DNA of 23,005 nt from a virus. A program made the position numbers and the translations under genes. Shown in pieces: positions 1,664-23,005 of the stretch (positions within the stretch are counted from its first letter, which is position 1; each line of letters opens with the position of its first letter). Where the stretch lies: the IMG/VR virus record IMGVR_UViG_3300030419_000862, positions 1 to 23,005 of that record; one strand, given 5' to 3'. Below the pieces are notes generated by a model that did not search any database, was not told the DNA's origin, and saw only the letters and a list, made by a program, of their open reading frames with translations.

Positions 1664-2131
1664 ATGGTTCAAAAAAAGACAACAATAGAAAGGCAAAAAG
1701 AATTTTTACAGGCTTACGCTGAGATAGGAACTATTATGGGAGCATGTAATTCTATAGGACTTGCAAGAAGTACTTTACAAGGGTGGAGAGACAATAATAT
1801 TTCATTTAAAGAACAATTTGAAACTGCAAGAAGTCAGTTTGTAGAATTACTTGAAGGGTACGCACACACTTTGGTTTCAGAAATGGCAAAAAACAAAGAT
1901 TACAAGGCAAATCCCACTTTGTTGTTGGCACTTCTTAACGCAAACAACCCAAGTAAATACAGAAGATTTGACTCAGGAGGAGGAGACCCCGCAAAAGAAT
2001 TAATGCAGGAGTTCAGACAACAAGTCAGAGACGCAGCTAAAGAAAAACAAAAACCAAAAAAAACTCAATCTTTTGAAAACGAAGTAGAAAATTTATTGAA
2101 GGATAAAGGAATTGTTAGAGACTCAGAATAA
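1664..2131 (+). CDS. terS: Terminase small subunit, 155 aa
   Basis: The small terminase recognises the packaging site and recruits the large subunit. Residues from about 8 to 55 form a helix-turn-helix-type region (ERQKEFLQAYAEIGTIMGAC, then IGLARSTLQGWRD) like that in many TerS proteins. A central helical region for oligomerisation follows, then a lysine/glutamine-rich C-terminal tail that usually contacts the large subunit. The ATG at 1664 is chosen over an in-frame TTG at 1655; neither has a convincing Shine-Dalgarno site, which is unusual in this window. The gene overlaps the large subunit by 20 bases. The assignment rests on the HTH, the size and the position immediately before the large terminase. 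Confidence 0.8.
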   Translation: MVQKKTTIERQKEFLQAYAEIGTIMGACNSIGLARSTLQGWRDNNISFKEQFETARSQFVELLEGYAHTLVSEMAKNKDYKANPTLLLALLNANNPSKYRRFDSGGGDPAKELMQEFRQQVRDAAKEKQKPKKTQSFENEVENLLKDKGIVRDSE

Positions 2132-3467
2132 ACAAAGACTAACTAAGATTAAAGAATTTATTTGGAACAAAGTAGATTTTAAACCTACTGAATTACAGAA
2201 ACCTATTTTATATTCTGACAAACGATATATCCTTGTAGCAGGAGGAGAACAGGCAGGTAAAAGTATGATTGCAAGTAAGTATTTACTTTCAAGAGTGTTT
2301 GATACTGAAGGAGCAGGGTTATATTGGTTGGTAGCTGCTGATTACAATAGAACAAGAGCAGAATACGAATATTTAGTACAGGACTTTGCGACTCTTGGAG
2401 TTTTGAAAAAAGCTTCAAAAAGAGTAGACCCTGCAAGAATAGAGCTTGCAGACGGTACTGTTATAGAAACCAAATCTGCAAAAGACCCCCGTACACTTGC
2501 TATGAAAGCCCCTGACGGTATTATTGGGTGTGAGGCAAGTCAGTTAGACTTAGATACTTTTTTCAGACTAAGAGGTAGAACGGCCCCTAAAAAAGGGTGG
2601 TTATTTTTATCAGGAACTTTTGAAGGGTCACTAGGTTGGTATCCACAGACTTATCTTGCATGGCAACACGGGTCTAGTGATGAACAATCTTATTCTCTCC
2701 CTTCTTATTCTAACACTCACTTATATAAAGGTGGTAAAGACGACCCTGAAATTATAAAACTTAAAAACGCTTCTTCAGATGATTTCTTTATGGAAAGAAT
2801 AGAAGGTATACCCTCTCCTCCTATTGGACAGGTATTCCCTGAATTTAGAGCAGATATTCATGTTAGAGAATTAGAATATGTAGAAGGACACCCTGTTCAT
2901 ATATGGATAGATCATGGTTATGCTTCAGCTTATGCCTGCATGATAGTACAAATATTTGACGATCATGTTTTGGTAATTGACGAAATATACGAACAACAAC
3001 TTATCACAGAAGAGATAATAGAGATAGCAAAACACAGACCTTGGTGGAAAGATGTACAATACGGAGTAACAGACATAGCAGGGTATCAACATCAGGCAAT
3101 GCCTGCGGTTGCAGAACTGTGGTTAGATCAGGCGGGGTTGTATATGACAGGAGAAAAGATTAAAATAAATGACGGTACTGAACGATTGAAGTCGGCATTA
3201 AAAATCGACCCTGTTACAAAAGAACCAAGATTGGTAGTAGACCCTAGATGTAAAGGATTACTTTCAGAGTTCGGAGCAGGGCCAAATCCGTTTGACGGAC
3301 AGACCAAAGTTTACAAATGGAAAACGGACAGAGACGGTAACATAGTTGGAAGTCAACCTGAAGATAAATACAATCACGGTGTAAAAGCTTTAATTTATGG
3401 GTTGATTAATCAATTCGGTTATGGTCATATTGAAAATAGAAATACTATCAGAGTTAAAAGGTGGTAA
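2112..3467 (+). CDS. terL: Terminase large subunit (packaging ATPase and nuclease), 451 aa
   Basis: The motor that pumps phage DNA into the prohead and cuts it. The ATPase domain has a Walker A loop GGEQAGKS (residues 44-51), a Walker B-like strand DGIIGCEAS with the catalytic glutamate at about 141, and a coupling motif LFLSGTF (164-170). The C-terminal RNase H-fold nuclease has acidic residues at D267 (IWIDHGY), D290/E291 (VIDEIYE) and D321 (GVTDIAG), with NHGVKAL near residue 421 as the last conserved motif. The start is TTG at 2112, inside the end of the small-subunit gene, with AAGGAT upstream. The next methionine lies beyond the Walker A loop, so the TTG start or one very near it must be used. 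Length is typical of the family and all motifs appear intact. Confidence 0.95.
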   Translation: MLETQNKQRLTKIKEFIWNKVDFKPTELQKPILYSDKRYILVAGGEQAGKSMIASKYLLSRVFDTEGAGLYWLVAADYNRTRAEYEYLVQDFATLGVLKKASKRVDPARIELADGTVIETKSAKDPRTLAMKAPDGIIGCEASQLDLDTFFRLRGRTAPKKGWLFLSGTFEGSLGWYPQTYLAWQHGSSDEQSYSLPSYSNTHLYKGGKDDPEIIKLKNASSDDFFMERIEGIPSPPIGQVFPEFRADIHVRELEYVEGHPVHIWIDHGYASAYACMIVQIFDDHVLVIDEIYEQQLITEEIIEIAKHRPWWKDVQYGVTDIAGYQHQAMPAVAELWLDQAGLYMTGEKIKINDGTERLKSALKIDPVTKEPRLVVDPRCKGLLSEFGAGPNPFDGQTKVYKWKTDRDGNIVGSQPEDKYNHGVKALIYGLINQFGYGHIENRNTIRVKRW

Positions 3468-5264: not shown

Positions 5265-6587
5265 ATGGCACTTATAACATACACAGTAACCAATGCTGAC
5301 GGGACAAAGGAACAAAAATCTTTTGAGTACACCCCAAAAACTTTGGAACAAATATTTGCAGAAGCTGCAAAGCTTGCAGACGGAGAAACTTCAGGCAGAA
5401 AATTTGAAGACCGACTGTACACAGTTGCCAGCAATGAAGGTAAAGAAAAAGCAAAGTTTGATCGAATAAAAGCAGAGCTGTCGGGACAAGACGCAAATGT
5501 AACAACCACAGATGTAAGTAATTTGTTAAAAGAAGCAGAACAAAGTAACGCTTCAGGTATTAACAGAGATAAAATTATGATTAGTGTAGACGAAAAAGTT
5601 GCTAATGATAACTTTATGAGGGACATGCCTACTTTGGGTTACCCTGCGTCAGCTTGGGAAGCAAAAAATCTAGCGTCTCAAAACAAGCAAGCTGAGCTCG
5701 CAAACTTAAACGCCGCTGAAAGCAACTTGATGTCGACAGGTAATTTATTTAACACAGGCGGAGCTGCGAACATGGACATGGCTAATCTTGCAATGACTAC
5801 GAATACAGGGGGTACGAATATAGGGGGCACTAATATAGGAGAGCTAGCAATGACCACAGGTGGTGGTAATGTTGAACCTTCCGCAAACCCAACAGGGCCA
5901 CTTGGATTAGGCGATATGACAGGTGGAGGGTTGGCTTTTGACCCTACAAGTATAGCGTTACGAGACATAGGCCCTTATGATGTGTTTCAGCAATATTTAG
6001 CAACTTCTCCGTATTCTGTAGGGGCGTTGAGAAGAGCAGCGGGTTCTCAATTTGACCCGTTATATACTCAGTATGTGTTACAAGGAGCAATGCCTCAACA
6101 ACCTAATGTAGGCGAAAATCCGTTTTTAACTTTCTTGGGAGAAAGCAGACAAGTAAATCCTTACGCATACGCACAATCAATAAGAAGAGCAGGAGACATA
6201 GCAGGAATGACAGACGACCAATTTTATGACGCAGGGTTAGATCAAGATTTGAGGGCTATGGCATTAAGAAATTTCTTTACGGGAGAAAACCAAAGGGCTT
6301 ACGAATTGGCGGCAGCTAATTTACCATTCCAACAAATGGTTGGTTCTCCGTTGGCAAGAGGAGCAATAAGTAATGTTATTCAAAATATGTACGACAGATT
6401 TAGAGCTAACTATCCATTAACAACTGACGCAGGACAACCTGCAAGTTTCTTAAACTATATTAGGTCTAGGAATTTGGGAGGACTTTTTGGAACAACAGCA
6501 GACCAAGCGCTAAACCCACAATTTTCAGGTGCAGGTGGAGGAGCCCCTGCTTTGAACTTGAGTGGAATCGCAAGTGGAAATGTTTAA
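5265..6587 (+). CDS. Putative virion protein of unknown function, 440 aa
   Basis: I do not recognise a family. Residues 1 to about 140 are charged and mostly helical. A central linker (about 150-220) is rich in Gly, Thr, Asn and Met and holds short repeats such as GGTNI and LAMTT. The C-terminal 200 residues form a more ordered helical domain rich in aromatic residues and Gln (YDVFQQYLATSPYSVGALRR). No membrane helix or signal peptide is seen. The ATG follows AAGGAG, one of the strongest sites in the window, suggesting high expression. Its position between portal and giant protein in a morphogenesis operon suggests a head-neck or ejected virion component. That is an inference from context. 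Confidence 0.72.
   Translation: MALITYTVTNADGTKEQKSFEYTPKTLEQIFAEAAKLADGETSGRKFEDRLYTVASNEGKEKAKFDRIKAELSGQDANVTTTDVSNLLKEAEQSNASGINRDKIMISVDEKVANDNFMRDMPTLGYPASAWEAKNLASQNKQAELANLNAAESNLMSTGNLFNTGGAANMDMANLAMTTNTGGTNIGGTNIGELAMTTGGGNVEPSANPTGPLGLGDMTGGGLAFDPTSIALRDIGPYDVFQQYLATSPYSVGALRRAAGSQFDPLYTQYVLQGAMPQQPNVGENPFLTFLGESRQVNPYAYAQSIRRAGDIAGMTDDQFYDAGLDQDLRAMALRNFFTGENQRAYELAAANLPFQQMVGSPLARGAISNVIQNMYDRFRANYPLTTDAGQPASFLNYIRSRNLGGLFGTTADQALNPQFSGAGGGAPALNLSGIASGNV
5808..5837 (+). repeat. Tandem 15-bp repeat coding for Gly/Thr/Asn linker
   Basis: GGGGGTACGAATATA (5808-5822) is followed by GGGGGCACTAATATA (5823-5837), 13 of 15 bases identical. They encode consecutive GGTNI units in the low-complexity linker of the 440-aa protein. 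Likely arose by slippage. Confidence 0.6.
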
Positions 6588-6596
6588 GGAGTAATT

Positions 6597-6965
6597 ATGG
6601 CAACACCGTTTATGTCTACTAACACATTTGATATAACAAATCCATTTTCAAATATATTGGAAGAACTTCCACAGGCGGCTTATTACTCAAGCCCTGCAGG
6701 ACAATCTTTTGCAAGACAATCTCCGAAGCAAAGAAGTTTTTTTGAAAATCAATTTCAAAATATATACAACTCATACTTAGGGGCACTAGGAGCTCAGATA
6801 AGAGAAGGTGGTTTACCAACTTTAAGATTACAAGATTACTTGGAAACTACGAATCCTTATACGGGAACAGACTTGTTTAGTTCTAGGTATCAAGCACAAA
6901 CCCCTGCACAAAGGGGAGATTACACTTCATATATCGCACCTAGAACAAGGTTTATGTATTACTGA
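6597..6965 (+). CDS. Hypothetical structural-operon protein, 122 aa
   Basis: A short protein without a recognised family. It is rich in Ser, Tyr, Gln and Phe (YYSSPAGQSFARQSPKQRSFF) and has no charged clusters, membrane segment or metal site. The composition resembles the C-terminal half of the preceding 440-aa protein (YNSYLGALGAQ, LRLQDYL), so the two may be distant relatives or interact. The ATG follows AAGGAG. Its TGA stop shares one base with the giant gene's ATG (TGATG), so the giant protein is probably translated by re-initiation. Likely a virion protein, from context only. Confidence 0.68.
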   Translation: MATPFMSTNTFDITNPFSNILEELPQAAYYSSPAGQSFARQSPKQRSFFENQFQNIYNSYLGALGAQIREGGLPTLRLQDYLETTNPYTGTDLFSSRYQAQTPAQRGDYTSYIAPRTRFMYY

Positions 6966-9900
6966 TGACTCAACCTAATTACATACAGGATTTTTTAAGA
7001 AGAGCAAGACAACAAATTGACAGAGAAAACCCTGTCTTTCCTTCTACAAATGTGCCTATGGCTTTCCCTGTACCTCAAGTAATTAAAGACAGAAATATAC
7101 AATACCCAAGGCAATATCCAACAACTCCAAAAGACCCTACTATGTATCAACAGCCTCCGACACAAGCTGTAACAAGACAAGTTCCCTTACCTCCTTTTTC
7201 TGAGATAATAGGAAACATTCAAGCGCAAGACCCTAGCACGGGACTTATGAAATTCGGGTCGGGAGTAACTGAAGACAGTGCTGAAACAAAACGATTAAAA
7301 GCTCAGGCACAATCATTTGTGGGAGGAAATTTAGATGATTTAAAAGTTCAGTTAAACCTTCCTGTAAACTATGACAAATATAAATTAGATTTTGATTATG
7401 ACCCTAATAAGTTTACTCCTGATAGTGTGACTACTGCGGAAGTAAATGAAGTTACACAAAAAGCTTATGATGTAATTATGACTACAAACGAAAGAGTACA
7501 AGACTTGGTTGGTAAAGTAAATAACGCAAAAAAATTACCTATGGCTCAATTATCTAAAGGAGGATTTGTAGTTGCAGGACAAAACGATTTGTATAATTTA
7601 CAAACTACTTCTGAAAAAGATTTGGAATTATATGCAAACTCTATATTTTACGAAGAAAACGAAAAAGCAGGAAGACCTATAGACAGATTAACTATGTTAG
7701 GTAAAGCATTGTACGATCAGGAAAACATAAGCGACAAAGAAGATGTAGGAAGAATTGCAGAAAACATAAAGTATAATCAAAGTACGATAAACGCAGTATT
7801 AAACCCCGCTATATCTCCCGTTGATTGGTTTGATGTAAATTATTGGGACATGGCTTTATGGCCTGTTACAGAGTTTGCTGCGGCTAAAGTAATTGCAAAA
7901 ACATATGGGTCAGCAGTTAAACCCGCAATGGGGGCTGTTGCCAAAACAAATGCTTATCAGGCGTTAGCTACTCAAACAAGTAAAGTAATAGATGACATAA
8001 TACCTTCTGCAGTAAAATCTTCTGTGGCCGCGGTAATTAACAAAGCAAAAGGTTCAACACCACAAGAATTAAAGTTTGGAGGTAATCAGTTTAAATATTG
8101 GGCAGGAGGGCCACCCGCTTTTCTTGCAACAGAAGGAGCTGTAAAAACACAAACAGACAATCCTTGGTTAATTTATCCTGCCGCAGTAGCAGCGGGTATA
8201 GCAGCCCCTGCAGCAGCAACCCCTGCTATTGGTAAAGCAATAACCGCAGGCGGAAAAAAAGTTTATAAAACCGCGGGAGAAAAAGCATTTGACCAAATTT
8301 TTAAAACTAAAAAAATAGATGTAGATGTAGGGATAACTTCCTCGGTAACTGAAAAACAAGGATATACTCCGTTTTTTGACAAGAATAAAGAAATAACTTT
8401 AAAACAAATAAACAACGAACTTTTAAATGGTACTATAACAGAACAAAGAAATGCTCAGAAAAAAGCAGGAGAAATTTTAAAACCAACTGTTACAGACTTA
8501 CAAGAAAAAGTAACAGAGTTGGGATTAGATACTATAACCAAAGCACAAGCCAATATAGGAATGTATGGAAATTATGTAGAGCATTCAGTAGAACTAACTA
8601 TTCCAACAACTTTAAACAGATTAGATGAAGTGTTGTTTCTTGCTGCAGACAGAGGTAAGGCATATAACCAAGACTCTACATTGTTAATACTAGAAGGAAT
8701 AGACGCAGATTCTAATTTAATTAAAACCGCACAAAAATTATTTCCTAATGTGTTAGGAGAAACACCTTTTGTAAATTCTCCAATATTGAAATTAGAATTT
8801 CCTAAACCTCTTACAGGGCAAGAGTTTCAAGAAGTACAACAAGCACTTATAAACAACTCTCCCGTAACTTTAAATAAAATAACAGGAGAAGCGGGAGAAG
8901 CTATTATTAGTGGACTAAAGTTGTCTGCTGATAAGAAAGGTGTTACAATAGCTTTTGTAGATGAATTTCTACCTGAAGGAGTATTAGTAAATAAGGCTAA
9001 AGATGACTTTAAACAATTCGGAAGACAACTCATTGATGACCCCGCAACAGCAGGACTCTCAATCCTTGGAAGATTGGGTGCAAGAATTACGCCAACTAGC
9101 GGCGTTACGAGGGGTATTGGGCGAAGGGAATACGACAGCGTCAGCAATCGTTTTCTCAACACCTCGAGCGGTAAACGCTTCGTTGACTCGCTCCCTGCAA
9201 AAAGACAAAAACAACTCTTAGACGAATACGACATAGATTACAGTTGGTATGAAGCAAGACCTGTTTTTGCTGCTACGGGAGACGAACTTGAAAACGACCC
9301 TTTTGTAAAATTTGCTACAGCTTATGCTAAGGCGGCGTCAGACACTCCTTTACCTAAAGATACAAACACCATACCTTCTGATAATAATCCAAGTATACAA
9401 TGGATTAAAAACGCGTCTATAACAACTCCTCCTATAAAAGCAGGAGAACCTAGAGGAAACACATTTAGTAGAAATTATACACATCTCATGCAACAATTAT
9501 GGGACAACACTTTTCTTTTGAGAAGAATAGCGGGTAAATACGGAGATAAACAATACGGAGAACTTGAAGATATGTTAAGTTCTAACAACGGTGTTTCTGC
9601 TGCTGTACAACAACGATTTGACAATATATATAAAGAACTAAATGAAGTGTTACCTGATGTTGATGTAAGTGATTTAGACTTACTAACAAGAATGGAACTA
9701 ACATTAAACTTGGCTTTTCAATGGACTAGAATAAATCCAAAAACAATGAAACCTCAAGGTAACATGAAAAAATTACCTATTCCAATAGATGAGATCTTAG
9801 GAATAGAACCACAAGCTGTAACTATGGCAAATGTAAATTCGGTTATAGAAGAAGTTAGAAACGAACTTCAAAAAAAATACGGGCCTACTGCTTACAAAAA

Positions 9901-12900
9901 ATTAAAACAACAAGTAAAAATTATCAACAATGTTTACAGAGAAGAAAGACGAAGACTGTATAACGAAGGGTTTTTAACTAAAGAACAATTTGAAGGACTA
10001 CAAAGAAACTACCCTGACTATGTTCCAACTAAATTTGTTAATCAAATGGCAGGAGAAGGGAATGTAAGTGGAGATTGGGGAGACATGGGAGCTTACAATA
10101 TCGTAAGACAATTTAGTGAATTTGGAGACAAAAACAACACTCTTCCATTATTAGAAACATTGTTAGTTCAACTTAAAACAAACGAACACAGAATGAGACA
10201 AAACAAACTTGTTAAATTTACAATGACTTTGTTAAGCAGTAATGAATACAAAGAATTGTTTAAAAGAACAAGAGCATTTCAAATAGGTAAACTAGGAATA
10301 GGTCGGGGAAGAGCAGGTCTTGACGAAGATATTATTACTGTAGAAAAAATAAACAGAAGCACTTATAACAGACTAGTAAAAAACAAAGAAGCTGTTGCTT
10401 TTTATGACAAAGGTAAACCACAATATTATAGAGTATCAAAAGAACTTTATAACGAGTTGGTAGGATTCAGAGAAGAATTAGCACAAGTTAGGGAAAGATT
10501 ACCTGCGTGGGTAAACGGGCCTAACACCATGTTTAAACTTGCTCATACAAGTTCTTTAGAATTTGCTGTAAAAAACTTATTTCTTGACCAAACCACGGCA
10601 ACAATGATGGCGTCTAAAGGAACTATTCCTAACTCAGCTAAGATAGCATTTAGAGACGCGGCTGCAAAGTTAGGAAAAAAAGATTTAATGAACGACTCTT
10701 TAGAACAAATATATTTGGCTAGTGGTGCTAGTCAAAAAAGATACAGCGGAGACTTTGGAGATCAGGCGTTTTTAAACACGGCTACAGAAAACGGATATCT
10801 AAAAGAAGTAGGCGGTGGGGCGTTTGGAGATTTTAAGTTGTCAAAAAAACACATGGAAAAATCTAAAAAAGCAGGAGCCACTTTTATAGACTTTGATAAA
10901 AATGGAAATATGATTAGTGTAGACAGTCCTACTATGGATAATGTAAAAGAAAGATTGTTTTCTGATTTATATGACAAATACGGAATAGACAAAACTACAA
11001 AAAAAGAATTACTTAAAACTCTTTCAGGAGCCAAGTTGTTTTCTAAAGCGTTGAGTAAATATATGTCTGTTTCAGAATACACAGAACAACTTACTAGAAG
11101 AGCTGTATTTGTAGCAGAGTTAAAAAAACAAAACCCGTATACATACAAAAGATTAGAAAAAGCAATTAAGGCAGTTAAATTACACTTGCCTGACGGAGAC
11201 CCTGCTAAAATGACTGTTGACCACAAAAAGAAATTAGCGGCAGCAAGAAAAGGATTGGCAAATGTTATCCATGAATTTTCACAAAGTGCAGCAGCAGCAA
11301 AAGCTGCTACTAGGTCTGTTCAGGCAACCATTGACTTTGCTCGCGGAGGACAAGCTATTAAAAAATTAAATTATTGGATTCCATTTCTTAATGCAGCGGC
11401 AGAAGGTACTAAGATACCTGTAAGAGCTATGTTTACACAAAGATCGGGTAAAACTGCAGCTGCAGCTAAAGCGGCCATACTAGCAGGAGGAGTTAGTGGT
11501 TTAACATGGTACAACTCTACATTTAAAGAATATTGGGATGTTGACCCTGTAGACAGACATACATCTTTAATACTTATGTTACCCTCAACAGAAAAGAAAC
11601 AACCTTTGGAAAAAGACGAGAATGGCGATTTTAGAATGAAACCTAGATATCTTAAGTTACTTCCAAGGTTAAGAGAGTGGGCTATAATTCATGGAAGTAT
11701 GATTAAATTAACAGAAGAATTAGTACGAAGTGACGAAGTTACAGAAGGACAACCTTGGTCAGACTTTTTCTTCAATGATGTTATTCCTGAAACAAGTCCT
11801 ATTGCAATAACAGGAAGGAATTTTTCAGCACTTGGAGCAATAAGTGGTGTAATTCCACCAATATTTCAAACTGCTACAGAACTTATGATGAATAAAAGTT
11901 TTTATTTTAATAAACAAATATATGATACTACTTTACCAAAAGATGACAGGTTCGGGTACAGTACAGGAACAAACCCCACATACAGATTGCTTGCAGAAAA
12001 ACTTAACATTCCTGATATTGGGGGAAGAGAAATAGGGTCTGCTGATGTACTTAGACACGGGATTAGAACATTCACAGGAAACTTGGGAGAAGAAATCGTA
12101 TTAAGTACAAGTGATTGGATTATTGAAAATTACTTTTTAGAATATCTTTTAGACCCTGAAGTAATTGAACCTTACAAAATGATTATTGGAATGTCAGACG
12201 AAGTAGCTCAACAGAAAGCATTGTCAGAACTTGACCCTATTATTAGACAAAAAGTTTTAATAGAATTAAAAAGAAGAAAAACTAAAGTTCCTGTGTTTAA
12301 TAAATTAACTCAAACTTTTTACGGAGAAGACAACGCGTACGGAGCTGAACGAGAAATATTCCCTTCAGTACAAAGAGACCTTGGAATTAACATAGGTAAA
12401 GCAGACGAACTTGACGAGAAAATGCAAATCCATGTAAACAAAGTACAAATAGATCTTTATGAAATTTCAGAACAATATGAAAAAAATCAAATAACCCCTG
12501 TTCAATGGAGAGAAGAAAGGTCTAAATTGTTTGCAGACTTTCAAACAATACAAGAAGGCGAATTGTTAAAACTTGAAGGGGCAGTAGTATTTCAAACTTT
12601 AACAGACGAACAACAAAAAGAATATTGGCAAAGAGTTAATGACGCTATGGCTTCAAGAGGTTATACAAATAAAAAAGAATATATTTACCAACAATATCAA
12701 TCAATAAAAATAAACTCAGAGCTGCAGGAAATAAATGAAGATTTAGCTTTTGAAGAATTTTTTGCAAAAAGAAAATCTTATTTGGATTCATTAACAGAAT
12801 CAGAATTAAAAGATTTTAAAGAAATGAGAGACGCTAGGTTAAATAAAGTAGAAAGAGAATGGATAAAAGAAAGTGAAGAAATACAAGTACTGTGGGATTG

Positions 12901-13522
12901 GACTTCAAGAAGTACTATTGAAAAAGCATTGGAAACAGGAAAGGAACTAGAATTTTCAACCAAAACATTAAAGTCAGAAAAAGATTTAAAAGAAATAAAA
13001 CTATCTGATGTTAAAAAACAATTAGCAATAAACCCTAAAATTAGAAAATCAAGAAGAGAAATATTTCAAGACTACTTACTTTATTTAAACCTTGAATCTA
13101 AATGGCAACAAGACTATCGAAACCCATTAGTAGAACAAGCAATAAAAGAGCAATACGAAAAACTAGGGTATGATTATGACGACAGACAAGAAACAGACGA
13201 CCTTGGCAGAACTGTATCTGTGTCACATAATGCTTGGATAGCAAGTATAAGGACTATGATTAATGAACGAAATGTGTACAAAACAGCTTTGAAATACAAC
13301 AATCCTAATATAGACAAGTATTACTCTAAGTGGTTTGGGTATTCCCCTTTGTCTTGGTCTACTGCGGTTAGAAACTTAAAAAATACTTCTTCAGGAAAGG
13401 ATGTAGAAAGAGCTGCTCCAAGCAGGGACAGAGAAATGCCTGTACACGATACAACACAAGAAATGTTAGAACAATATTATCCTAATGTTATACAACAAGG
13501 ATTAGAATTAGGTTTTAAGTAA
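6965..13522 (+). CDS. Giant virion-associated (large polyvalent-type) protein, 2185 aa
   Basis: The largest gene here, a single frame of 2185 codons. The N-terminus is proline-rich and probably extended. A hydrophobic Ala-rich segment lies at 401-426 (WLIYPAAVAAGIAAPAA). Residues about 985-1025 hold the YNEGFLTKEQFEGLQRNYPD pattern followed by YVPTKF, which I know from phage polyvalent proteins. DFARGGQAIKKLNYWIPFLN at 1457-1476 and the 300 residues after it look like the LPD38 domain of large polyvalent proteins. A second hydrophobic stretch lies near 1504-1516. From about 1830 the protein is charged and helical, with coiled-coil character. I see no lysozyme, protease or RNA polymerase motif. 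Such proteins are thought to be packaged and ejected with the DNA. No tape measure is visible, so this is the best candidate for the internal ejection protein (inference). Start overlaps the previous stop. Confidence 0.8.
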   Translation: MTQPNYIQDFLRRARQQIDRENPVFPSTNVPMAFPVPQVIKDRNIQYPRQYPTTPKDPTMYQQPPTQAVTRQVPLPPFSEIIGNIQAQDPSTGLMKFGSGVTEDSAETKRLKAQAQSFVGGNLDDLKVQLNLPVNYDKYKLDFDYDPNKFTPDSVTTAEVNEVTQKAYDVIMTTNERVQDLVGKVNNAKKLPMAQLSKGGFVVAGQNDLYNLQTTSEKDLELYANSIFYEENEKAGRPIDRLTMLGKALYDQENISDKEDVGRIAENIKYNQSTINAVLNPAISPVDWFDVNYWDMALWPVTEFAAAKVIAKTYGSAVKPAMGAVAKTNAYQALATQTSKVIDDIIPSAVKSSVAAVINKAKGSTPQELKFGGNQFKYWAGGPPAFLATEGAVKTQTDNPWLIYPAAVAAGIAAPAAATPAIGKAITAGGKKVYKTAGEKAFDQIFKTKKIDVDVGITSSVTEKQGYTPFFDKNKEITLKQINNELLNGTITEQRNAQKKAGEILKPTVTDLQEKVTELGLDTITKAQANIGMYGNYVEHSVELTIPTTLNRLDEVLFLAADRGKAYNQDSTLLILEGIDADSNLIKTAQKLFPNVLGETPFVNSPILKLEFPKPLTGQEFQEVQQALINNSPVTLNKITGEAGEAIISGLKLSADKKGVTIAFVDEFLPEGVLVNKAKDDFKQFGRQLIDDPATAGLSILGRLGARITPTSGVTRGIGRREYDSVSNRFLNTSSGKRFVDSLPAKRQKQLLDEYDIDYSWYEARPVFAATGDELENDPFVKFATAYAKAASDTPLPKDTNTIPSDNNPSIQWIKNASITTPPIKAGEPRGNTFSRNYTHLMQQLWDNTFLLRRIAGKYGDKQYGELEDMLSSNNGVSAAVQQRFDNIYKELNEVLPDVDVSDLDLLTRMELTLNLAFQWTRINPKTMKPQGNMKKLPIPIDEILGIEPQAVTMANVNSVIEEVRNELQKKYGPTAYKKLKQQVKIINNVYREERRRLYNEGFLTKEQFEGLQRNYPDYVPTKFVNQMAGEGNVSGDWGDMGAYNIVRQFSEFGDKNNTLPLLETLLVQLKTNEHRMRQNKLVKFTMTLLSSNEYKELFKRTRAFQIGKLGIGRGRAGLDEDIITVEKINRSTYNRLVKNKEAVAFYDKGKPQYYRVSKELYNELVGFREELAQVRERLPAWVNGPNTMFKLAHTSSLEFAVKNLFLDQTTATMMASKGTIPNSAKIAFRDAAAKLGKKDLMNDSLEQIYLASGASQKRYSGDFGDQAFLNTATENGYLKEVGGGAFGDFKLSKKHMEKSKKAGATFIDFDKNGNMISVDSPTMDNVKERLFSDLYDKYGIDKTTKKELLKTLSGAKLFSKALSKYMSVSEYTEQLTRRAVFVAELKKQNPYTYKRLEKAIKAVKLHLPDGDPAKMTVDHKKKLAAARKGLANVIHEFSQSAAAAKAATRSVQATIDFARGGQAIKKLNYWIPFLNAAAEGTKIPVRAMFTQRSGKTAAAAKAAILAGGVSGLTWYNSTFKEYWDVDPVDRHTSLILMLPSTEKKQPLEKDENGDFRMKPRYLKLLPRLREWAIIHGSMIKLTEELVRSDEVTEGQPWSDFFFNDVIPETSPIAITGRNFSALGAISGVIPPIFQTATELMMNKSFYFNKQIYDTTLPKDDRFGYSTGTNPTYRLLAEKLNIPDIGGREIGSADVLRHGIRTFTGNLGEEIVLSTSDWIIENYFLEYLLDPEVIEPYKMIIGMSDEVAQQKALSELDPIIRQKVLIELKRRKTKVPVFNKLTQTFYGEDNAYGAEREIFPSVQRDLGINIGKADELDEKMQIHVNKVQIDLYEISEQYEKNQITPVQWREERSKLFADFQTIQEGELLKLEGAVVFQTLTDEQQKEYWQRVNDAMASRGYTNKKEYIYQQYQSIKINSELQEINEDLAFEEFFAKRKSYLDSLTESELKDFKEMRDARLNKVEREWIKESEEIQVLWDWTSRSTIEKALETGKELEFSTKTLKSEKDLKEIKLSDVKKQLAINPKIRKSRREIFQDYLLYLNLESKWQQDYRNPLVEQAIKEQYEKLGYDYDDRQETDDLGRTVSVSHNAWIASIRTMINERNVYKTALKYNNPNIDKYYSKWFGYSPLSWSTAVRNLKNTSSGKDVERAAPSRDREMPVHDTTQEMLEQYYPNVIQQGLELGFK
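9089..9199 (+). other. CpG-rich patch of atypical codon use inside the giant gene
   Basis: Thirty-seven codons (residues 709-745 of the giant protein) have about 56% GC and 13 CpG dinucleotides, while flanking DNA is AT-rich with very few CpGs. The arginine codons in the patch are AGG, CGA, CGT and CGC with no AGA, leucine is CTC, and serine is mostly AGC or TCG. The rest of the gene favours AGA, TTA and TCT/AGT. The reading frame is unbroken. The edges are sharp on both sides. Possible causes are recombination with a donor of different composition, or selection on the DNA or RNA itself. Confidence 0.7.
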
Positions 13523-14493: not shown

Positions 14494-15363
14494 ATGGCTC
14501 AAACCGCTACAACAGGTAGTTTAGAGAACGCGAGCAGAACTATAATCGCGGCTGCTAGATATACCGAGGAGCATAATGCTCCCGCTATGGCTTTAATAGA
14601 GAAGTTCACACTTCCTAGAGGTTCAAAGCAAGTAACTGTGCCAAAAGTCTCACAAATGACCGTGTCTGACTTAACAGACGGACAGGACATTGTTGACGAA
14701 GAAGAGATAGGAATGACAACAGTCAGCCTTACTGCAAGTGAGGTAGGAGCTAAAGTTATTCTTACCGATAAACTTGTTCGTGAACAACAAAACAATGTGT
14801 TTACTATTATTGGTAAACAACTTGGAGACGCAATGGCAAGAAAAAAAGATACTGATGTTCACTCATTATATAGTTCATTAAATGGTGGCACTACACTTGG
14901 TGCAGCAGCAGCTACAGCAAGTCTAGCTAACATTGCAGGTGCAATAGCATACGCAAAAGCCAACAAGTTTGGAACAGAAATATATATTCTGCAACACCCA
15001 AATACTGTTTTTGATATTGCTAACACAGCAGTAACAGCTTCTTCAACTTACCCTGTACCGCATGGTTGGTCTGAAGATTTACTAGGGAATTTCTTTAGCG
15101 GTCTAAGACCTCTTAATGGAGTTCCAATTTTTGAAGACGGAAACTTATCAGTTGACTCAAATGATGACGCTGTTGGCGTTATTGCTGACAAATCAGCTTT
15201 AGCTGTACTACAGTCTGTTGACAGTAGAACAGAGAGGCAGCGGGATGCTTCAATGCGTGCGACTGAGGTGGTTATTACTGCGGATTACGGAGTTGCAGAG
15301 CTTGATGATTCAAGAGGTGCTCCTTTGACTTTTGACGCTTCCGCTCCTTCAACTAGTGCGTAA
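14494..15363 (+). CDS. Major capsid protein (HK97-type fold), 289 aa
   Basis: The main shell protein. It follows the scaffold gene and has the size and pattern of small HK97-fold coat proteins. An N-terminal helical segment (SLENASRTIIAAARYTEEHN) is followed by a beta stretch (KQVTVPKVSQMTVSDLTDGQ) that may form the extended loop. Then come the long spine-like helix (NVFTIIGKQLGDAMARKKDT), an Ala-rich peripheral domain and a final beta strand ATEVVITADYGVAELDD. No separate cleaved prodomain is evident. GGTGGAGGAAATAAATG gives a strong ribosome binding site. Identification is by position and general architecture. Confidence 0.85.
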   Translation: MAQTATTGSLENASRTIIAAARYTEEHNAPAMALIEKFTLPRGSKQVTVPKVSQMTVSDLTDGQDIVDEEEIGMTTVSLTASEVGAKVILTDKLVREQQNNVFTIIGKQLGDAMARKKDTDVHSLYSSLNGGTTLGAAAATASLANIAGAIAYAKANKFGTEIYILQHPNTVFDIANTAVTASSTYPVPHGWSEDLLGNFFSGLRPLNGVPIFEDGNLSVDSNDDAVGVIADKSALAVLQSVDSRTERQRDASMRATEVVITADYGVAELDDSRGAPLTFDASAPSTSA

Positions 15364-17835: not shown

Positions 17836-19116
17836 ATGGCAATAACACAAAGTAAAACTAGAGAAGATATAAGAAAAGCAATAGGTAGAAACCTAGGCAA
17901 AATGGTAACAGGTACTACTTCAGGTAGTGGTTCTACTACTACCGCTGTAGACACTACATTGTTTGGAGGAGATGACGAATACAATGGAAGTTACATTCGT
18001 TTTACTTCGGGAACTTATGACGGAACTACTAGAAGAATAACAGATTACGCGTCTTCTACAGGGACAATGACATTTGCAGCAGTAGCAGGTACTATTGCAG
18101 GTAGTGTGACTTATGAGTTATGGGATGACGGATTTGACCCACAAGTAGTAGATGAGTTTATCAATCAGTCTATCTTAGAAGTAACGGGAAATATATATGA
18201 CCCTGAAGAAAGTTTAGAAGTTCATACAGATAAAATTAATGCACGGTGGGAAATCCCTTCACAGTTTGCTGTAATTCAAGATATTTATTACAGGAATAAA
18301 TACACATCAAAAACACTTCATGCTTGCGGTACTACCTTTGACGAAACAACAGACAGCGATATAACACAAGCTGTAAGCACAGAAGATTACAAAAGAGACG
18401 GAAGTAGTTTAAAGCTTACTATAGCCTCAGGAGCTTCTGCGGGAGACAAAATAACAGACTCAATAACTTCCGTTGATTTAAGTAAATATGACTTTATAGA
18501 ATTTTGGATTAAATCTACAGTAGCAACAAGTGCAGGTAATTTAAAAATACATTTAGATAACGGAACAGTAACGGCTGACGGCAATGATTTAGAATCTTTA
18601 AATGTGCCCGCTTTAACTGCAGACACTTGGAAGTATTGTAGAGTAGCACTAAGTAACCCTGAGTCAGACACAGCTATAGTGTCAATAGGATTAGAATATG
18701 ATAGTGATTTAGGAGCTTGTACTGTTTTCCTAGATGATATTAAAGCAGTTAAGAACGATACTGCGGTATGGGAAAAACTAGATAGGAACACATGGAGAAT
18801 AGACAAACAAGGAAGTCAAGGAGCAAGTACTCAAGATTTAATATTAAATGACAGAGGTAGAACCTTAGCAGGAAACAATTTATTAAAAATAGTAGGCGGA
18901 GACGAGCCTGCTGAATTGTCTTCTGACTCTGACACAACAGAAGTCCCTGAAAGATTTGTAATAGCTTATGCTACTGCGTTGTCAGCACAAGCAGGGTCTG
19001 CCCGAACTGATATAGACATGGACGCCATGCGAAATTTGTCTGCGTTTTGGTTTGCTAAATCTGAACAAGCTAGACATAGTTTCCCGCTTTTAACTAATGT
19101 AAGAACAGTAAGGTAA
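17836..19116 (+). CDS. Adaptor/head-tail connector-like protein with inserted beta-sandwich, 426 aa
   Basis: The N- and C-terminal parts resemble podovirus adaptor (tail tubular A-like) proteins: a helical start (KTREDIRKAIGRNLGKM), the segment DPQVVDEFINQSILEVTGNI, a beta stretch and a helical end (RFVIAYATALSAQAGS, MRNLSAFWFAKSEQARHSF). This would join portal to tail. Two insertions stand out. Residues about 28-95 form a Gly/Thr/Ser-rich beta module. Residues about 187-305 look like a carbohydrate-binding-module-type jelly roll (KYDFIEFWIKS, DTWKYCRVALS, VFLDDIKAV). The second could let the tail base bind a surface sugar or simply decorate it. The assignment rests on architecture and on its place just before the large tail protein. 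Site GAGG before ATG. Confidence 0.62.
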   Translation: MAITQSKTREDIRKAIGRNLGKMVTGTTSGSGSTTTAVDTTLFGGDDEYNGSYIRFTSGTYDGTTRRITDYASSTGTMTFAAVAGTIAGSVTYELWDDGFDPQVVDEFINQSILEVTGNIYDPEESLEVHTDKINARWEIPSQFAVIQDIYYRNKYTSKTLHACGTTFDETTDSDITQAVSTEDYKRDGSSLKLTIASGASAGDKITDSITSVDLSKYDFIEFWIKSTVATSAGNLKIHLDNGTVTADGNDLESLNVPALTADTWKYCRVALSNPESDTAIVSIGLEYDSDLGACTVFLDDIKAVKNDTAVWEKLDRNTWRIDKQGSQGASTQDLILNDRGRTLAGNNLLKIVGGDEPAELSSDSDTTEVPERFVIAYATALSAQAGSARTDIDMDAMRNLSAFWFAKSEQARHSFPLLTNVRTVR

Positions 19117-20999
19117 TGGCTAACAAGGTTGTAAAAAAAAATGAAGTTTATCTTAATGGAGTTTATTACCCAATAAGTAGACCTGTGCAGAAAGTTTTAG
19201 CTTCCATATTTCCTGCAAAAGTTACTATTGGAGATACCACTCGTGACTCACAAACTAGGGCAAGTGTAATATCTTGGTCTGATTTCAGGGGTGGTATAGG
19301 TGTAGAGAGAATGGAATCATCAGTAGATGTGAATAGGGCGTGGTGGAGTACCTGTAGCCTTCGCTACAAAAGACACCTAGTATTACCTCCTCTAACAACT
19401 CAAGTTACTAATGACGACTCAACTGCTGCAGGGTCGTTAGATATTATTACTCAATTTAACAATGAAATATACGGTATATGGTCTGATAAAAAAGTGTATC
19501 AATTTAATCAAGGATATGCTTCTGCTTCAGACGCTTTTGGAGACGCCTTAGACACTTTACCTGACACTGCTACAGACGCAATAGAAGTAAGAATGGGCGG
19601 AACTTTATACATGGTTATAGCTACAGGTGGAGGATATACCTATACATCTAATGCTAGTAGTTTTACTGATGACACCAAAGACGCTAAGTTTCTTACTTTT
19701 TGGGATGACAAGTTATGGGGAATAGATAACTCAGGACAACTTTGGCATGCGGCTACTATAGGTTCAGAAACAGATGACGCCAAACTTCCTTTGCCTGACG
19801 GATATGTGACTGATTTATTTGTAGCTAGAAACGCTAGTGGTAATCCTGTTATATATGCTATGACTAAAGTAGGACTGTACGCACACGACTCTGCTAATTC
19901 TAAATTTGTAGAGACTCAACTGTCATTGCCGTTTCACGAAAACAACGGAGAAGGCTCTGTTAGGTGGAGAGATTCTGTATACATACCTGCAGGACTAGGC
20001 ATATACAAGTACATAAATGGGTCAAATTCAGCCGTTGTAACCTTGGTTGGACTAGACAGAGACCACGGACTCCCAACAGACCAAAGAGGTACAATTAAAC
20101 AACTTCTAGGCACACACAATGATTTACTTGCATTTGTAGACGGTACTATAGAACCAAACGAAACAGATATGTTTGACGGAACTAATATATCTACAAGTCC
20201 GTTACCTGCAGGTAATACAATAGAAGCTAGTACGGGTCTTAGTGCAATATTTGGTTGGAATGAAATGGGGTGGGAAACAAAATGGTTAGCAACAACAGCA
20301 GGAGAAAGTGTAACTTCTTCATTTGTTTCTAATGCTCAAGGTAACTATAGATTATATTGGGGTCATCAAGGTTATATGTATTATCAACAATTACAAACTG
20401 ATGTTATAAACCCCACTCAAGTAACAACATTTAATTACGCTTCTTCAGCAGAACATTATACCCCGTGGTTTAGTGCTGACCAAGTTGAAGTAGACAAACT
20501 AGCATTAAAACTTAAAGTAGAAACAGAAGGTTGTAGCTCCTCAGAAACAATAGCAGTTAGTTATGCTACTGATTATGGAAGTTCTTATACTTCTTTAGGC
20601 ACTATTACTTCTGACGGACTTACTACATACACATTTGGAAGCAATGCAGGAACTACTTTTAGGTCTATTCAATTTAAACTAGTTTTATCTAGGGGAGATA
20701 CTAATACAAACACCCCTGATGTTATTAGCACAACATTTGAATTTAGAAAAAAATTAGAAACTAAGTTTGCTTGGGCAGTTGATTTAGATTTAACTAAAGC
20801 TTACAAAAGTAATACTCCTAAATCATTGAGATCTAATTTGTTATCTGCAATAGAAAGTAACACATTACTTGAATTTACATTTAGAGATGACGCGTCTACC
20901 AATAGAAATTACTATGTTGATATAACTTCAGCTCAAGGTATGGAGCATACTGCTTATGACGAAAGAGGTTCAACAAGATTATTATTAGCAGAACCGTAA
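19116..20999 (+). CDS. Large beta-rich tail protein (nozzle/tail hub-like), 627 aa
   Basis: The protein is almost wholly beta, with repeated short blades of the type NEIYGIWSDKKVYQFNQG, DKLWGIDNSGQLWHA and NPVIYAMTKVGLYAHDS, which suggests a beta-propeller. A conserved opening is SWSDFRGGIGVERMESSVDV followed by RYKRHLVLPP. In short-tailed phages the tail nozzle (tail tubular B) contains a propeller and follows the adaptor gene, as here. The C-terminal 150 residues form a separate beta domain (WFSADQVEVDKLALKLKVE). It shares one base with the previous stop (TAATG), so translation is coupled. Propeller and nozzle are inferences from pattern and gene order; an alternative is a receptor-binding or hub protein of a longer tail. 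Confidence 0.7.
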   Translation: MANKVVKKNEVYLNGVYYPISRPVQKVLASIFPAKVTIGDTTRDSQTRASVISWSDFRGGIGVERMESSVDVNRAWWSTCSLRYKRHLVLPPLTTQVTNDDSTAAGSLDIITQFNNEIYGIWSDKKVYQFNQGYASASDAFGDALDTLPDTATDAIEVRMGGTLYMVIATGGGYTYTSNASSFTDDTKDAKFLTFWDDKLWGIDNSGQLWHAATIGSETDDAKLPLPDGYVTDLFVARNASGNPVIYAMTKVGLYAHDSANSKFVETQLSLPFHENNGEGSVRWRDSVYIPAGLGIYKYINGSNSAVVTLVGLDRDHGLPTDQRGTIKQLLGTHNDLLAFVDGTIEPNETDMFDGTNISTSPLPAGNTIEASTGLSAIFGWNEMGWETKWLATTAGESVTSSFVSNAQGNYRLYWGHQGYMYYQQLQTDVINPTQVTTFNYASSAEHYTPWFSADQVEVDKLALKLKVETEGCSSSETIAVSYATDYGSSYTSLGTITSDGLTTYTFGSNAGTTFRSIQFKLVLSRGDTNTNTPDVISTTFEFRKKLETKFAWAVDLDLTKAYKSNTPKSLRSNLLSAIESNTLLEFTFRDDASTNRNYYVDITSAQGMEHTAYDERGSTRLLLAEP

Positions 21000-21015: not shown

Positions 21016-21423
21016 ATGGTTACAACTAATCAACAAAATGCAATAATACAAATCCCTTCTAGTTGGGAAGGAAGTATTCCTGAGTACATGGTACTTCAAG
21101 CTTTAAATAGACTAGGACTAAGAGACGGTTACGAGTTTACCTATCAGTCTCCTTTACTTGGGGGCAGAATAGAAAAAGGTGGATATGTTGTAGATTTCTT
21201 GTTTAACGAGCCCCCTGATTTGGCAATCAATGTACAAGGAGAATATTGGCATTATGCTCAGGGAATAACTAAAATAACAAGTGACGATATGTCAAGAGCA
21301 GTTTTGGCAGGACAAGGAATAACATTGATTTTAATTGACGAAAATGATATATATAAAGATGTGGACTTTTATGTAAGGGAAGCTTTACGATATAGAGACC
21401 ACTCCAAACAAGTCGGGAGATAA
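21016..21423 (+). CDS. Vsr/DUF559-like endonuclease-fold protein, 135 aa
   Basis: The layout matches very-short-patch-repair (Vsr) and DUF559 nucleases. A helix carries an early glutamate (IPEYMVLQALNRLG, E23), then YQSPLLGGR, then VVDFLF with the central acidic D60, then the strand DLAINVQGEYWHYAQG with W78-H79, and DDMSRAVLAGQGITLILIDE. In Vsr the equivalent strand reads HGCFWHH. In DUF559 it reads E-x-DG-x-x-H. Here the expected acid before VQGE is Asn72, so the metal site may be altered and activity is uncertain. It lies in the tail operon, right before a fibre gene, and has AAGGGTG before its ATG. Fold assignment is by recalled motif; a structural role is possible. Confidence 0.62.
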   Translation: MVTTNQQNAIIQIPSSWEGSIPEYMVLQALNRLGLRDGYEFTYQSPLLGGRIEKGGYVVDFLFNEPPDLAINVQGEYWHYAQGITKITSDDMSRAVLAGQGITLILIDENDIYKDVDFYVREALRYRDHSKQVGR

Positions 21424-21425
21424 GT

Positions 21426-23005
21426 ATGGCAATAAAATTACAAGGATATGTATTTAAAAATGACGGCACAGCATTGAGCGGTGCTACAGTACAGGTTTAT
21501 GACACCTCAGATTCCTCTACGGAAGGAAGTCCTGTAACCACAGATTCAAATGGATTGTGGACTTATGATGACATAACTGCAGACGCCCTATATGATGTAA
21601 AAATTTCTAGTGGTGGCTCAGTCAGGTGGAGAATGGGAGAAGATAAGATTCAGATTAAAGAAGCTTATATCAGAAACGACACTTCAGCTACACAAGCTCC
21701 TTTATATTTAGCAAATGCAACTAACGCTACGAGTGTTAAAGTCTTAGATTTATCTAATAAAAATTCTACTAGAGCAGACAATGATGAGATTTATATTTCA
21801 TTTAATTTGAATGATTACGGAGGAACTTCTGATGAATTTGCCCGTATAACAGCAGTAGCAACAGATGTTACAGCAGGAGAAGAAGACGGAGCTTTGGTTT
21901 TTTCTGTTGCCGATAATGACAATAGTGGAGATTTACAGGAAGCTTTCAGAATTACAAGCAGTACAGGTGGTACTGTTTCAGCAACTACTACTAGTGCAAG
22001 TCAGTTTAACAATACAATTACTGTAGGTGTTGATGACACAGGATATGATGTAAAGTTTTTTGGAGCTACAGCTAGTGCATATATGTTATGGGACGAATCT
22101 GAAGATGATTTAATATTAGCAGGAGCTGCTAGATTAGTAGTACCTGACGGACAACTTGTTCTTGGTAGCACAGCAGTTAGCTCAACTCCTGCAGAATTAA
22201 ATTTAATGGACGGAGGTTCTTCTATAGGAACTACAACTGTGGCAGACGGTCACGGAATAGTAATGAATCATGGGGGAACTATGGCTCAAACTACAGTGCA
22301 AACTCTTGCTGCTTATCTTGATGATGAGATAACAGGTATGCCAAACTTGGCTACAGTAGGAACAATTGGTACAGGCGTGTGGCAAGGAACTGCAATAGCT
22401 TCAGCTTATATAGCAGGAGATGCTATTACAGGAGCTAAGATTGCAGATGATGCAATAGGTAGTGAACATATAGCAGATGATGCAGTAGTTTCTGCAGCAA
22501 TTGCAGATGATGCAATAACATCTGCTTTAATAGCAGATGATGCTATTACCACAGCTTTAATAGCAGACGATGCTATTACTACAGCATTGATAGCTGATGA
22601 TGCTATTACTTCTGCATTAATTGCAGACGGAGCAATTACTACTGCTTTAATAGGAGCAGATGCAGTTACTTCAGCTAAGATTCCTGATGACGCTATAAGC
22701 GAAGAACATTTAGCTGATGATGTTATATCAGCACAAACAGAAATAACTTCAGGACTTGCAGCAGCAGACGAATTACTCTACTCTGACGGAGGTACTCTTA
22801 AGAAAGTAGGGTTAGATAATTTTGTAGAACTTTCTCCACAACTAGCTACAGAAGATACCATAGCAGTAGCAAGTGACTATGTTCTTTTCCTTGACGGAGG
22901 AGGAACAGGTAATATGAATAAAGAATCTGTTGCAGATTTTGTATCAGCAATAGCAGGTTCAGGGTTGTCGGCTTCAAGTGGACAACTGACAGCAAGTGGT
23001 GGAGT
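21426..23005 (+). CDS. Tail fibre / receptor-binding protein, N-terminal 526 aa (runs off the right edge)
   Basis: The start ATG is two bases after the previous stop, with GGGAGA upstream. Residues 1-60 look like a carboxypeptidase-regulatory or CNA-B-like beta-sandwich (LQGYVFKNDGTALSGATVQV, TTDSNGLWTYDDI). Beta-rich stretches and the phrase SSTPAELNLMDGGSS, familiar from aquatic phage fibres, follow. At residues 327-436 there are eleven decapeptide repeats with ADDAI cores. After these the sequence is again beta-rich and the gene continues beyond the window. It is low in Cys and rich in Thr, Ser, Ala and Gly, as fibres usually are. Probable host recognition or fibre shaft; the tip is not visible. 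Confidence 0.78.
   Translation, partial: MAIKLQGYVFKNDGTALSGATVQVYDTSDSSTEGSPVTTDSNGLWTYDDITADALYDVKISSGGSVRWRMGEDKIQIKEAYIRNDTSATQAPLYLANATNATSVKVLDLSNKNSTRADNDEIYISFNLNDYGGTSDEFARITAVATDVTAGEEDGALVFSVADNDNSGDLQEAFRITSSTGGTVSATTTSASQFNNTITVGVDDTGYDVKFFGATASAYMLWDESEDDLILAGAARLVVPDGQLVLGSTAVSSTPAELNLMDGGSSIGTTTVADGHGIVMNHGGTMAQTTVQTLAAYLDDEITGMPNLATVGTIGTGVWQGTAIASAYIAGDAITGAKIADDAIGSEHIADDAVVSAAIADDAITSALIADDAITTALIADDAITTALIADDAITSALIADGAITTALIGADAVTSAKIPDDAISEEHLADDVISAQTEITSGLAAADELLYSDGGTLKKVGLDNFVELSPQLATEDTIAVASDYVLFLDGGGTGNMNKESVADFVSAIAGSGLSASSGQLTASGG
22404..22733 (+). repeat. Eleven 30-bp repeats coding ADDAI decapeptides
   Basis: Eleven consecutive 10-residue units match the consensus A-L-I-A-D-D-A-I-T-S/T (variants AKIADDAIGS, EHIADDAVVS, AKIPDDAISE, EHLADDVISA). 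The central units are nearly identical in protein but differ at third codon positions, so the array is not a recent tandem duplication. The periodicity suggests a regular beta or coiled shaft in the fibre. Confidence 0.85.

Follow-up and report, generated by a model that had tools for sequence, protein, structure and literature searches.

Why would the tail of a phage need to cut DNA? The question is raised by an open reading frame (positions 21016–21423, + strand) in a 23,005-base virus record, the whole of which was analysed and is called the window here. The frame encodes 135 amino acids and lies between a tail gene for a 627-aa protein, whose stop precedes it by 16 nt, and a fibre gene that begins 2 nt beyond its end. 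A first-pass annotation, made from the letters of the DNA, had described a Vsr/DUF559-like nuclease fold with an altered active site, and had offered three readings: a tail-associated nuclease, a repurposed structural protein or a gene moved by homing-type transfer.

The presence of a large terminase gene (2112–3467, +; PHROG_2, E = 9.5e-18) places the window's structural genes in a tailed phage. The 627-aa protein (19116–20999, +) has the predicted fold of a beta-propeller tail hub, or nozzle, resembling P22 gp10 and Sf6 gp8. Foldseek, applied to its AlphaFold2 model (pLDDT 75), returned the Pa223 tail (E = 1.1e-11), P22 gp10 (6.3e-10) and Sf6 gp8 (2.1e-9) at the top, with SU10 and T7 tails also among the matches; VIA-align returned generic beta-propellers over about residues 71–448 and no phage hub among the best 50 listed, and no PHROG family matched the protein. 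Because the VIA-align result was generic whereas phage hubs came first in Foldseek, the assignment as a putative podoviral-type hub is based on Foldseek and gene order. The fibre gene (21426–23003, +), open at the end of the window, matches a PHROG tail fibre family (E = 6e-23) and has a CarboxypepD_reg-like N-terminal domain (PF13620, E = 5e-6, 27.2 bits, under the cut-off of 32.3). Upstream of the hub lies a 426-aa gene (17836–19116, +) whose position fits a head–tail adaptor, as judged by gene order; a gene of 420–489 aa likewise precedes the hub in related loci L066, L083, L082, L073, L045 and L041.

The protein encoded at 21016–21423 is, on its predicted structure, a member of the Vsr/EDxHD/DUF559 fold group of PD-(D/E)XK nucleases. 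An AlphaFold2 model built from 19 sequences (pLDDT 77, pTM 0.74) is structured over residues 21–124, corresponding to the nuclease domain only, and pLDDT falls below 50 at residues 78–82, H79 among them. The best Foldseek match was the I-Bth0305I domain (3R3P, E = 5.4e-4). VIA-align gave 3HRL (Z 10.1, rmsd 2.1 over 87 residues), 3R3P (Z 9.7, rmsd 3.2 over 93 residues) and the Vsr structures 1CW0 (Z 8.9, rmsd 3.9 over 109 residues) and 1VSR (Z 8.3, rmsd 2.9 over 102 residues), and most of the named entries among the top viral models are Vsr, DUF559 or homing endonucleases. Structure prediction, both structural searches and the viral models thus bear out the fold that the first-pass annotation had proposed.

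Sequence profiles reach the same group faintly. A profile of 29 sequences had 3R3P as its sole match among PDB sequences (E = 0.11), and hhalign paired the family with an endonuclease of Microcystis phage MaeS (probability 90) and one of a Campylobacter phage (probability 77). Searched singly against Pfam, the window's protein matched MTES_1575 (E = 0.044, 14.3 bits against a cut-off of 38.2) and neither DUF559 nor Vsr at E = 1; no MTES_1575, DUF559 or Vsr score for it exceeded the curated cut-off. Among 29 members, matches at E ≤ 0.1 were to MTES_1575 (5/29), DUF2726 (3/29) and DUF559 (2/29), with best values of 0.005 for MTES_1575, 0.029 for DUF559 and 0.054 for Vsr; those for MTES_1575, DUF2726 and DUF559 span 0.005–0.034. 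A PHROG family labelled ‘HNH endonuclease’ matched the single sequence (E = 0.0066) and 5 of 25 members (best E = 0.0011). Neither Pfam nor PHROG yielded a convincing family for the protein, and a single-sequence PDB search gave nothing credible, its galectin and RbcX matches being put down to chance.

The residues to which the first-pass annotation drew attention, E23, D60, N72 and Q74-G75-E76-Y77-W78-H79, are all present and correctly numbered. Aligned with E. coli Vsr, to which sequence similarity is very weak (hhalign probability 7), E23, D60 and H79 stand opposite E25, D51 and H69, which we take to be the catalytic residues of Vsr, and N72-V73-Q74 opposite F62-T63-H64. EDxHD enzymes carry E in the first helix, D in the second strand, H past the glycine of the next strand and D in the following helix, an order that E23, D60, H79 and D90 fit. 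The canonical half-motif of PD-(D/E)XK enzymes, (D/E)-x-K, is absent from the protein, which has N72-V73-Q74 instead. Vsr too is described as having FXH without (D/E)-x-K (excerpt of PMC1189080), and its D51–H69 pair is placed in the active site (excerpt of PMC11879112). As Vsr has no acid at the position of N72, a missing acid there is no evidence of a dead enzyme, and the ‘altered active site’ that had been read from N72 is not supported: Vsr has Phe at this position, and the Vsr-type E/D/H set is complete. We consider E23, D60, Q74, H79, D90 and R94 the candidate site, and N72 a family hallmark.

Conservation agrees with this assignment. Across 66 distinct relatives, E23, D60 and H79 are invariant (66/66, a circular figure because the set was retrieved with intact queries, including the window's protein), and N72, Q74 and D90 are each present in 65/66; E76, within QGEYWH, is variable (E in 22/66, V in 35/66). 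In a wider set of distinct hub–protein pairs, 88/101 have E, D and H at 23, 60 and 79 together with D or N at 90, and N72 and Q74 are retained in 86 of these 88 intact relatives, a class defined by positions 23, 60 and 79 themselves, so that its complete conservation there is circular. With further loci added, E23, D60 and H79 occur in 97 of 110 distinct cores, D90 being N in 2 of the 97. Together with a median pairwise dN/dS of about 0.18 for the family, the conservation of E23, D60 and H79 makes the residue pattern more than chance. At loci L158 and L160, S-x-L replaces N72-x-Q74, with E23, D60, H79 and D90 retained.

The place of the gene is equally constant. An alignment-based search of virus contigs with the family found 204 relatives, and in the best 80 of these the hub gene lies upstream in every case (80/80), immediately so in 38/80 and across a gap of 274–594 nt in 42/80. 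In the seven such gaps that were read (L041, at 5711–6004, L092, L094, L107, L120, L133 and L154), the space is filled by a gene of 95–97 aa without an assigned function. Whether the fibre gene is always a neighbour had been raised with the first-pass annotation; in the same 80 loci, its N-terminal domain follows wherever sequence remains (74/80, the other six having ≤160 nt left), the detected fibre start lying about 92 nt further downstream at L158 and L160. A query built on divergent members gave 75 loci, all with the hub upstream (75/75), in a set that overlaps the first, many contigs recurring between searches. The reverse search, with a hub profile, gave 230 loci; in the best 80, the nuclease-fold gene follows the hub in 73, though in two of these the contig breaks off within it; the remaining seven contigs are too short to show it, six of them ending within 500 nt of the hub. 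The contig of L228 ends 544 nt past the hub, after two small genes, and L120, with the same two small genes, has the nuclease-fold gene just beyond them. Across the three locus sets, no relative lacked the gene wherever the hub–fibre junction could be read.

A scan of bacterial and archaeal genomes added one relative, in a Chloroflexi MAG (L087, 1–7549), where a 267-aa gene, a 602-aa hub, the nuclease-fold protein, an extra 113-aa gene and a fibre-like gene follow one another. The contig thus carries a diverged version of the same tail module, and by eye a tyrosine-recombinase/integrase-like gene stands at its edge; it is probably a prophage.

Retrieval by the hub revealed relatives in which the site is gone. 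Of the 73 genes found in this way, 2 run off the contig; among the 71 loci that can be read, 60 carry the complete set and 11 are site-less. The share of site-less genes is 13/101 among distinct hub–protein pairs and 13/110 among distinct cores with further loci, proportions that depend on how the loci were retrieved. In these 13 sequences, a small number, Q74 and H79 are changed in all (13/13), D60 in 11/13, D90 in 7/13 and E23 in 3/13; with E23 retained in 10/13 and D90 in 6/13, the loss is not complete at all positions. N72 is kept in 11/13 and thus behaves as a family or structural residue. The most relaxed columns are Q44, H79, Q74, P22, D60, P67, D90 and parts of the GGR-KGG loop, and P14, W17, G19, G34, F41, F61, F63, P66, L69, G83, I105, A123 and L124 are nearly fixed in both classes. 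By eye, a gene with a similar fibre N-terminus begins 0–3 nt downstream in 13/13.

The site was lost in at least two lineages and probably in three, as judged from hub trees. A quick tree of 84 rows, 12 of them site-less once near-copies were removed, requires three changes, all forced by well-supported branches. A careful tree of 40 of these rows, chosen by us to hold 12 site-less and 28 intact members with the longest-branch rows omitted, again requires three changes throughout the bootstrap range, at least two of them forced. One site-less clade has diversified (7 rows). Median dN/dS is 0.187 for site-less pairs (12 of 27 usable) and 0.183 for intact pairs (302 of 2,749 usable), with many dS values near saturation and pairs that are not independent. 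The 12 records with a site-less gene hold one copy each and no second copy; these records may be fragments, so a nuclease elsewhere is possible.

The account that we favour, as a likely though by no means settled one, is that of a domesticated Vsr/EDxHD nuclease that has become a core tail-module protein, with a role in assembly that does not depend on catalysis and with most lineages probably still cutting. The protein would belong to the core of a short-tail (podoviral-type) module, and its gene stands with those of hub and fibre. Encoded between these two, it may act in assembly or as an adaptor at the tail; from gene position, the most likely site in the virion would be the hub–fibre junction or the hub exit, and the protein could also be an assembly factor that leaves the virion. 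Independence of the assembly role from catalysis is suggested by several lineages in which the site has gone but the gene persists, in place and under the same constraint, which points to a second role besides cleavage. That the same residues are lost jointly points to a single functional site, and that they hardly vary elsewhere speaks for its being functional in intact members. It is the joint loss that carries the weight here, the intact class being defined by the site residues. In most sampled lineages, and in the window, the metal/DNA site (E23, D60, Q74, H79 and D90) is intact, so that they probably retain nuclease activity and nick or cut DNA at the tail. Our preferred guess for this cutting, by analogy with T4 gp4, would be that the phage trims the end of its own DNA when the tail is attached. 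Decay of the site in a retained gene suggests an enzyme in transition to a structural component. A fuller history is conceivable and is offered tentatively: a nuclease captured into the tail of uncultured short-tailed phages may have become indispensable as part of the particle and shed its site lineage by lineage, intact members remaining active exit enzymes. A tail-associated nuclease and a repurposed structural protein, two of the readings first offered, are each supported, in different lineages of one family.

A purely enzymatic protein, morphogenetic or injected, would cut the packaged end or host DNA at entry, and site-less lineages would be in the course of being replaced or compensated. 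The 97 of 110 distinct sequences with E23, D60 and H79 speak for it, as does the loss of H79 and Q74 together in 13/13 site-less members, a pattern that an active site should show; yet after the loss the gene holds its place with an unchanged dN/dS, one site-less clade has diversified, and no second copy was found in the 12 site-less records, so that we regard this explanation as unlikely. Its precedent, T4 gp4, has another gene place and another tail type, and no sequence relation to it was found (hhalign probability 0.1, single gp4 sequence); later nuclease work on T4 gp4 is reportedly due to Benler et al. In an excerpt of PMC1189080, the head completion protein gp4 is described as small, needed in morphogenesis and predicted to have a PD-(D/E)XK fold. 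A purely structural or scaffolding Vsr fold, with the residues kept for folding or for a metal site and without nuclease activity, would accommodate the site-less relatives that stay in place, and has parallels in FASTKD4 and mitoribosomal proteins, which appear in the structure comparison. FASTKD4 (9gek, VIA-align Z 8.3) is reported to have a Vsr-like fold without nuclease activity (excerpt of PMC11879112) and offers a precedent for repurposing, although it and other RAP-domain proteins are eukaryotic and RNA-binding. Against such a structural role, the columns that relax jointly are mostly those of the site and the loop and hardly vary elsewhere; as they relax in site-less lineages, they are not needed for the shared fold, and we hold a purely structural use of the fold to be quite improbable.

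Homing-type transfer, the remaining reading of the first-pass annotation, did not hold up. A homing-type endonuclease gene moved into the tail operon might be suspected because the closest solved relative is the homing enzyme I-Bth0305I and because phage MaeS has an EDxHD-like endonuclease between two tail genes. The gene is nevertheless never absent where the contig is long enough, occupies one fixed site, encodes 135 aa without a DNA-binding extension and is retained after site loss; no present/absent polymorphism was seen at the hub–fibre junction where the place could be read. On the fixed synteny and the retention after site loss, we reject a homing insertion, which is left with a very slight chance of being correct. 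The domesticated nuclease remains the account that we prefer.

Each of the closest known systems shares part of these features. The I-Bth0305I domain is the best Foldseek match and the only PDB-sequence profile match; it resembles the window's protein in a strand motif (LAIxVxG) and in a D that aligns close to D90, but carries E-x-N where that protein has N-x-Q. EDxHD enzymes join the domain to extended DNA-binding regions (excerpt of PMC3943268), whereas here the domain stands by itself, in 135 aa, at a fixed place in a tail operon. E. coli Vsr shares the fold (Z 8.3–8.9) and the want of an acid at position 72, but has T63-H64 at V73-Q74, and the tail operon offers no mismatch-repair context. 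NGO0050 (3HRL) and the DUF559/MTES_1575/DUF2726 families are alike in fold (Z 10.1 to 3HRL) and in the weak Pfam matches; the half-motif N-x-Q sets the window's protein apart from these families.

Nuclease folds in phage morphogenesis (T4 gp4; excerpt of PMC1189080) and repurposed Vsr-like folds in eukaryotes (excerpt of PMC11879112) are already known. Word searches of the open-licence literature, covering listings and the starts of abstracts, found no description of a Vsr/DUF559 protein as a phage tail gene, and the available parts of PMC9958956, PMC9024508 and PMC10448857 hold nothing on one. For a group of uncultured phages, a core tail-module protein that had gone unannotated is thus brought to light. 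Because intact nucleases and site-less proteins form a natural series at a single gene position, the separation of catalytic from architectural role can be put to a direct test.

The tail gene set belongs to mostly uncultured phages. A tblastn search of 50,697 records with the hubs of the window, L087 and L066 turned up no isolated phage that carries this tail module, and the nuclease-fold protein itself gave only distant or doubtful matches (MaeS, E = 0.03; a Prevotella phage, E = 0.02). A match to Pseudomonas phage VCM (E = 0.4) was dismissed as not homologous, the annotated protein there showing no motif. In MaeS, by eye, the EDxHD-like endonuclease (L006, 7557–8348) splits an apparent single tape-measure gene, as if inserted.

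The major capsid protein (14494–15363, +; PHROG_267, E = 3.1e-10) is 28–31% identical to those of pelagiphages HTVC026P, HTVC111P, HTVC112P and HTVC202P and of phage DSL-LC06. Annotated tape measure genes occur in HTVC111P, HTVC026P and DSL-LC06; these three and a further capsid relative, Mae-JY09, have a tape measure or a major tail protein among their annotated genes, which indicates tails of another type: the capsid is shared and the tail swapped. Elsewhere in the window, a 197-aa frame (542–1135, −) with GEYAV, NND and EVKSK resembles, by eye, a canonical PD-(D/E)XK nuclease, and matched no Pfam family at E = 0.1 and no PHROG at 0.01. A 2,185-aa protein (6965–13522), encoded between portal-like and scaffold-like genes, matches the large polyvalent protein domain LPD38 above the cut-off (E = 4.7e-7).
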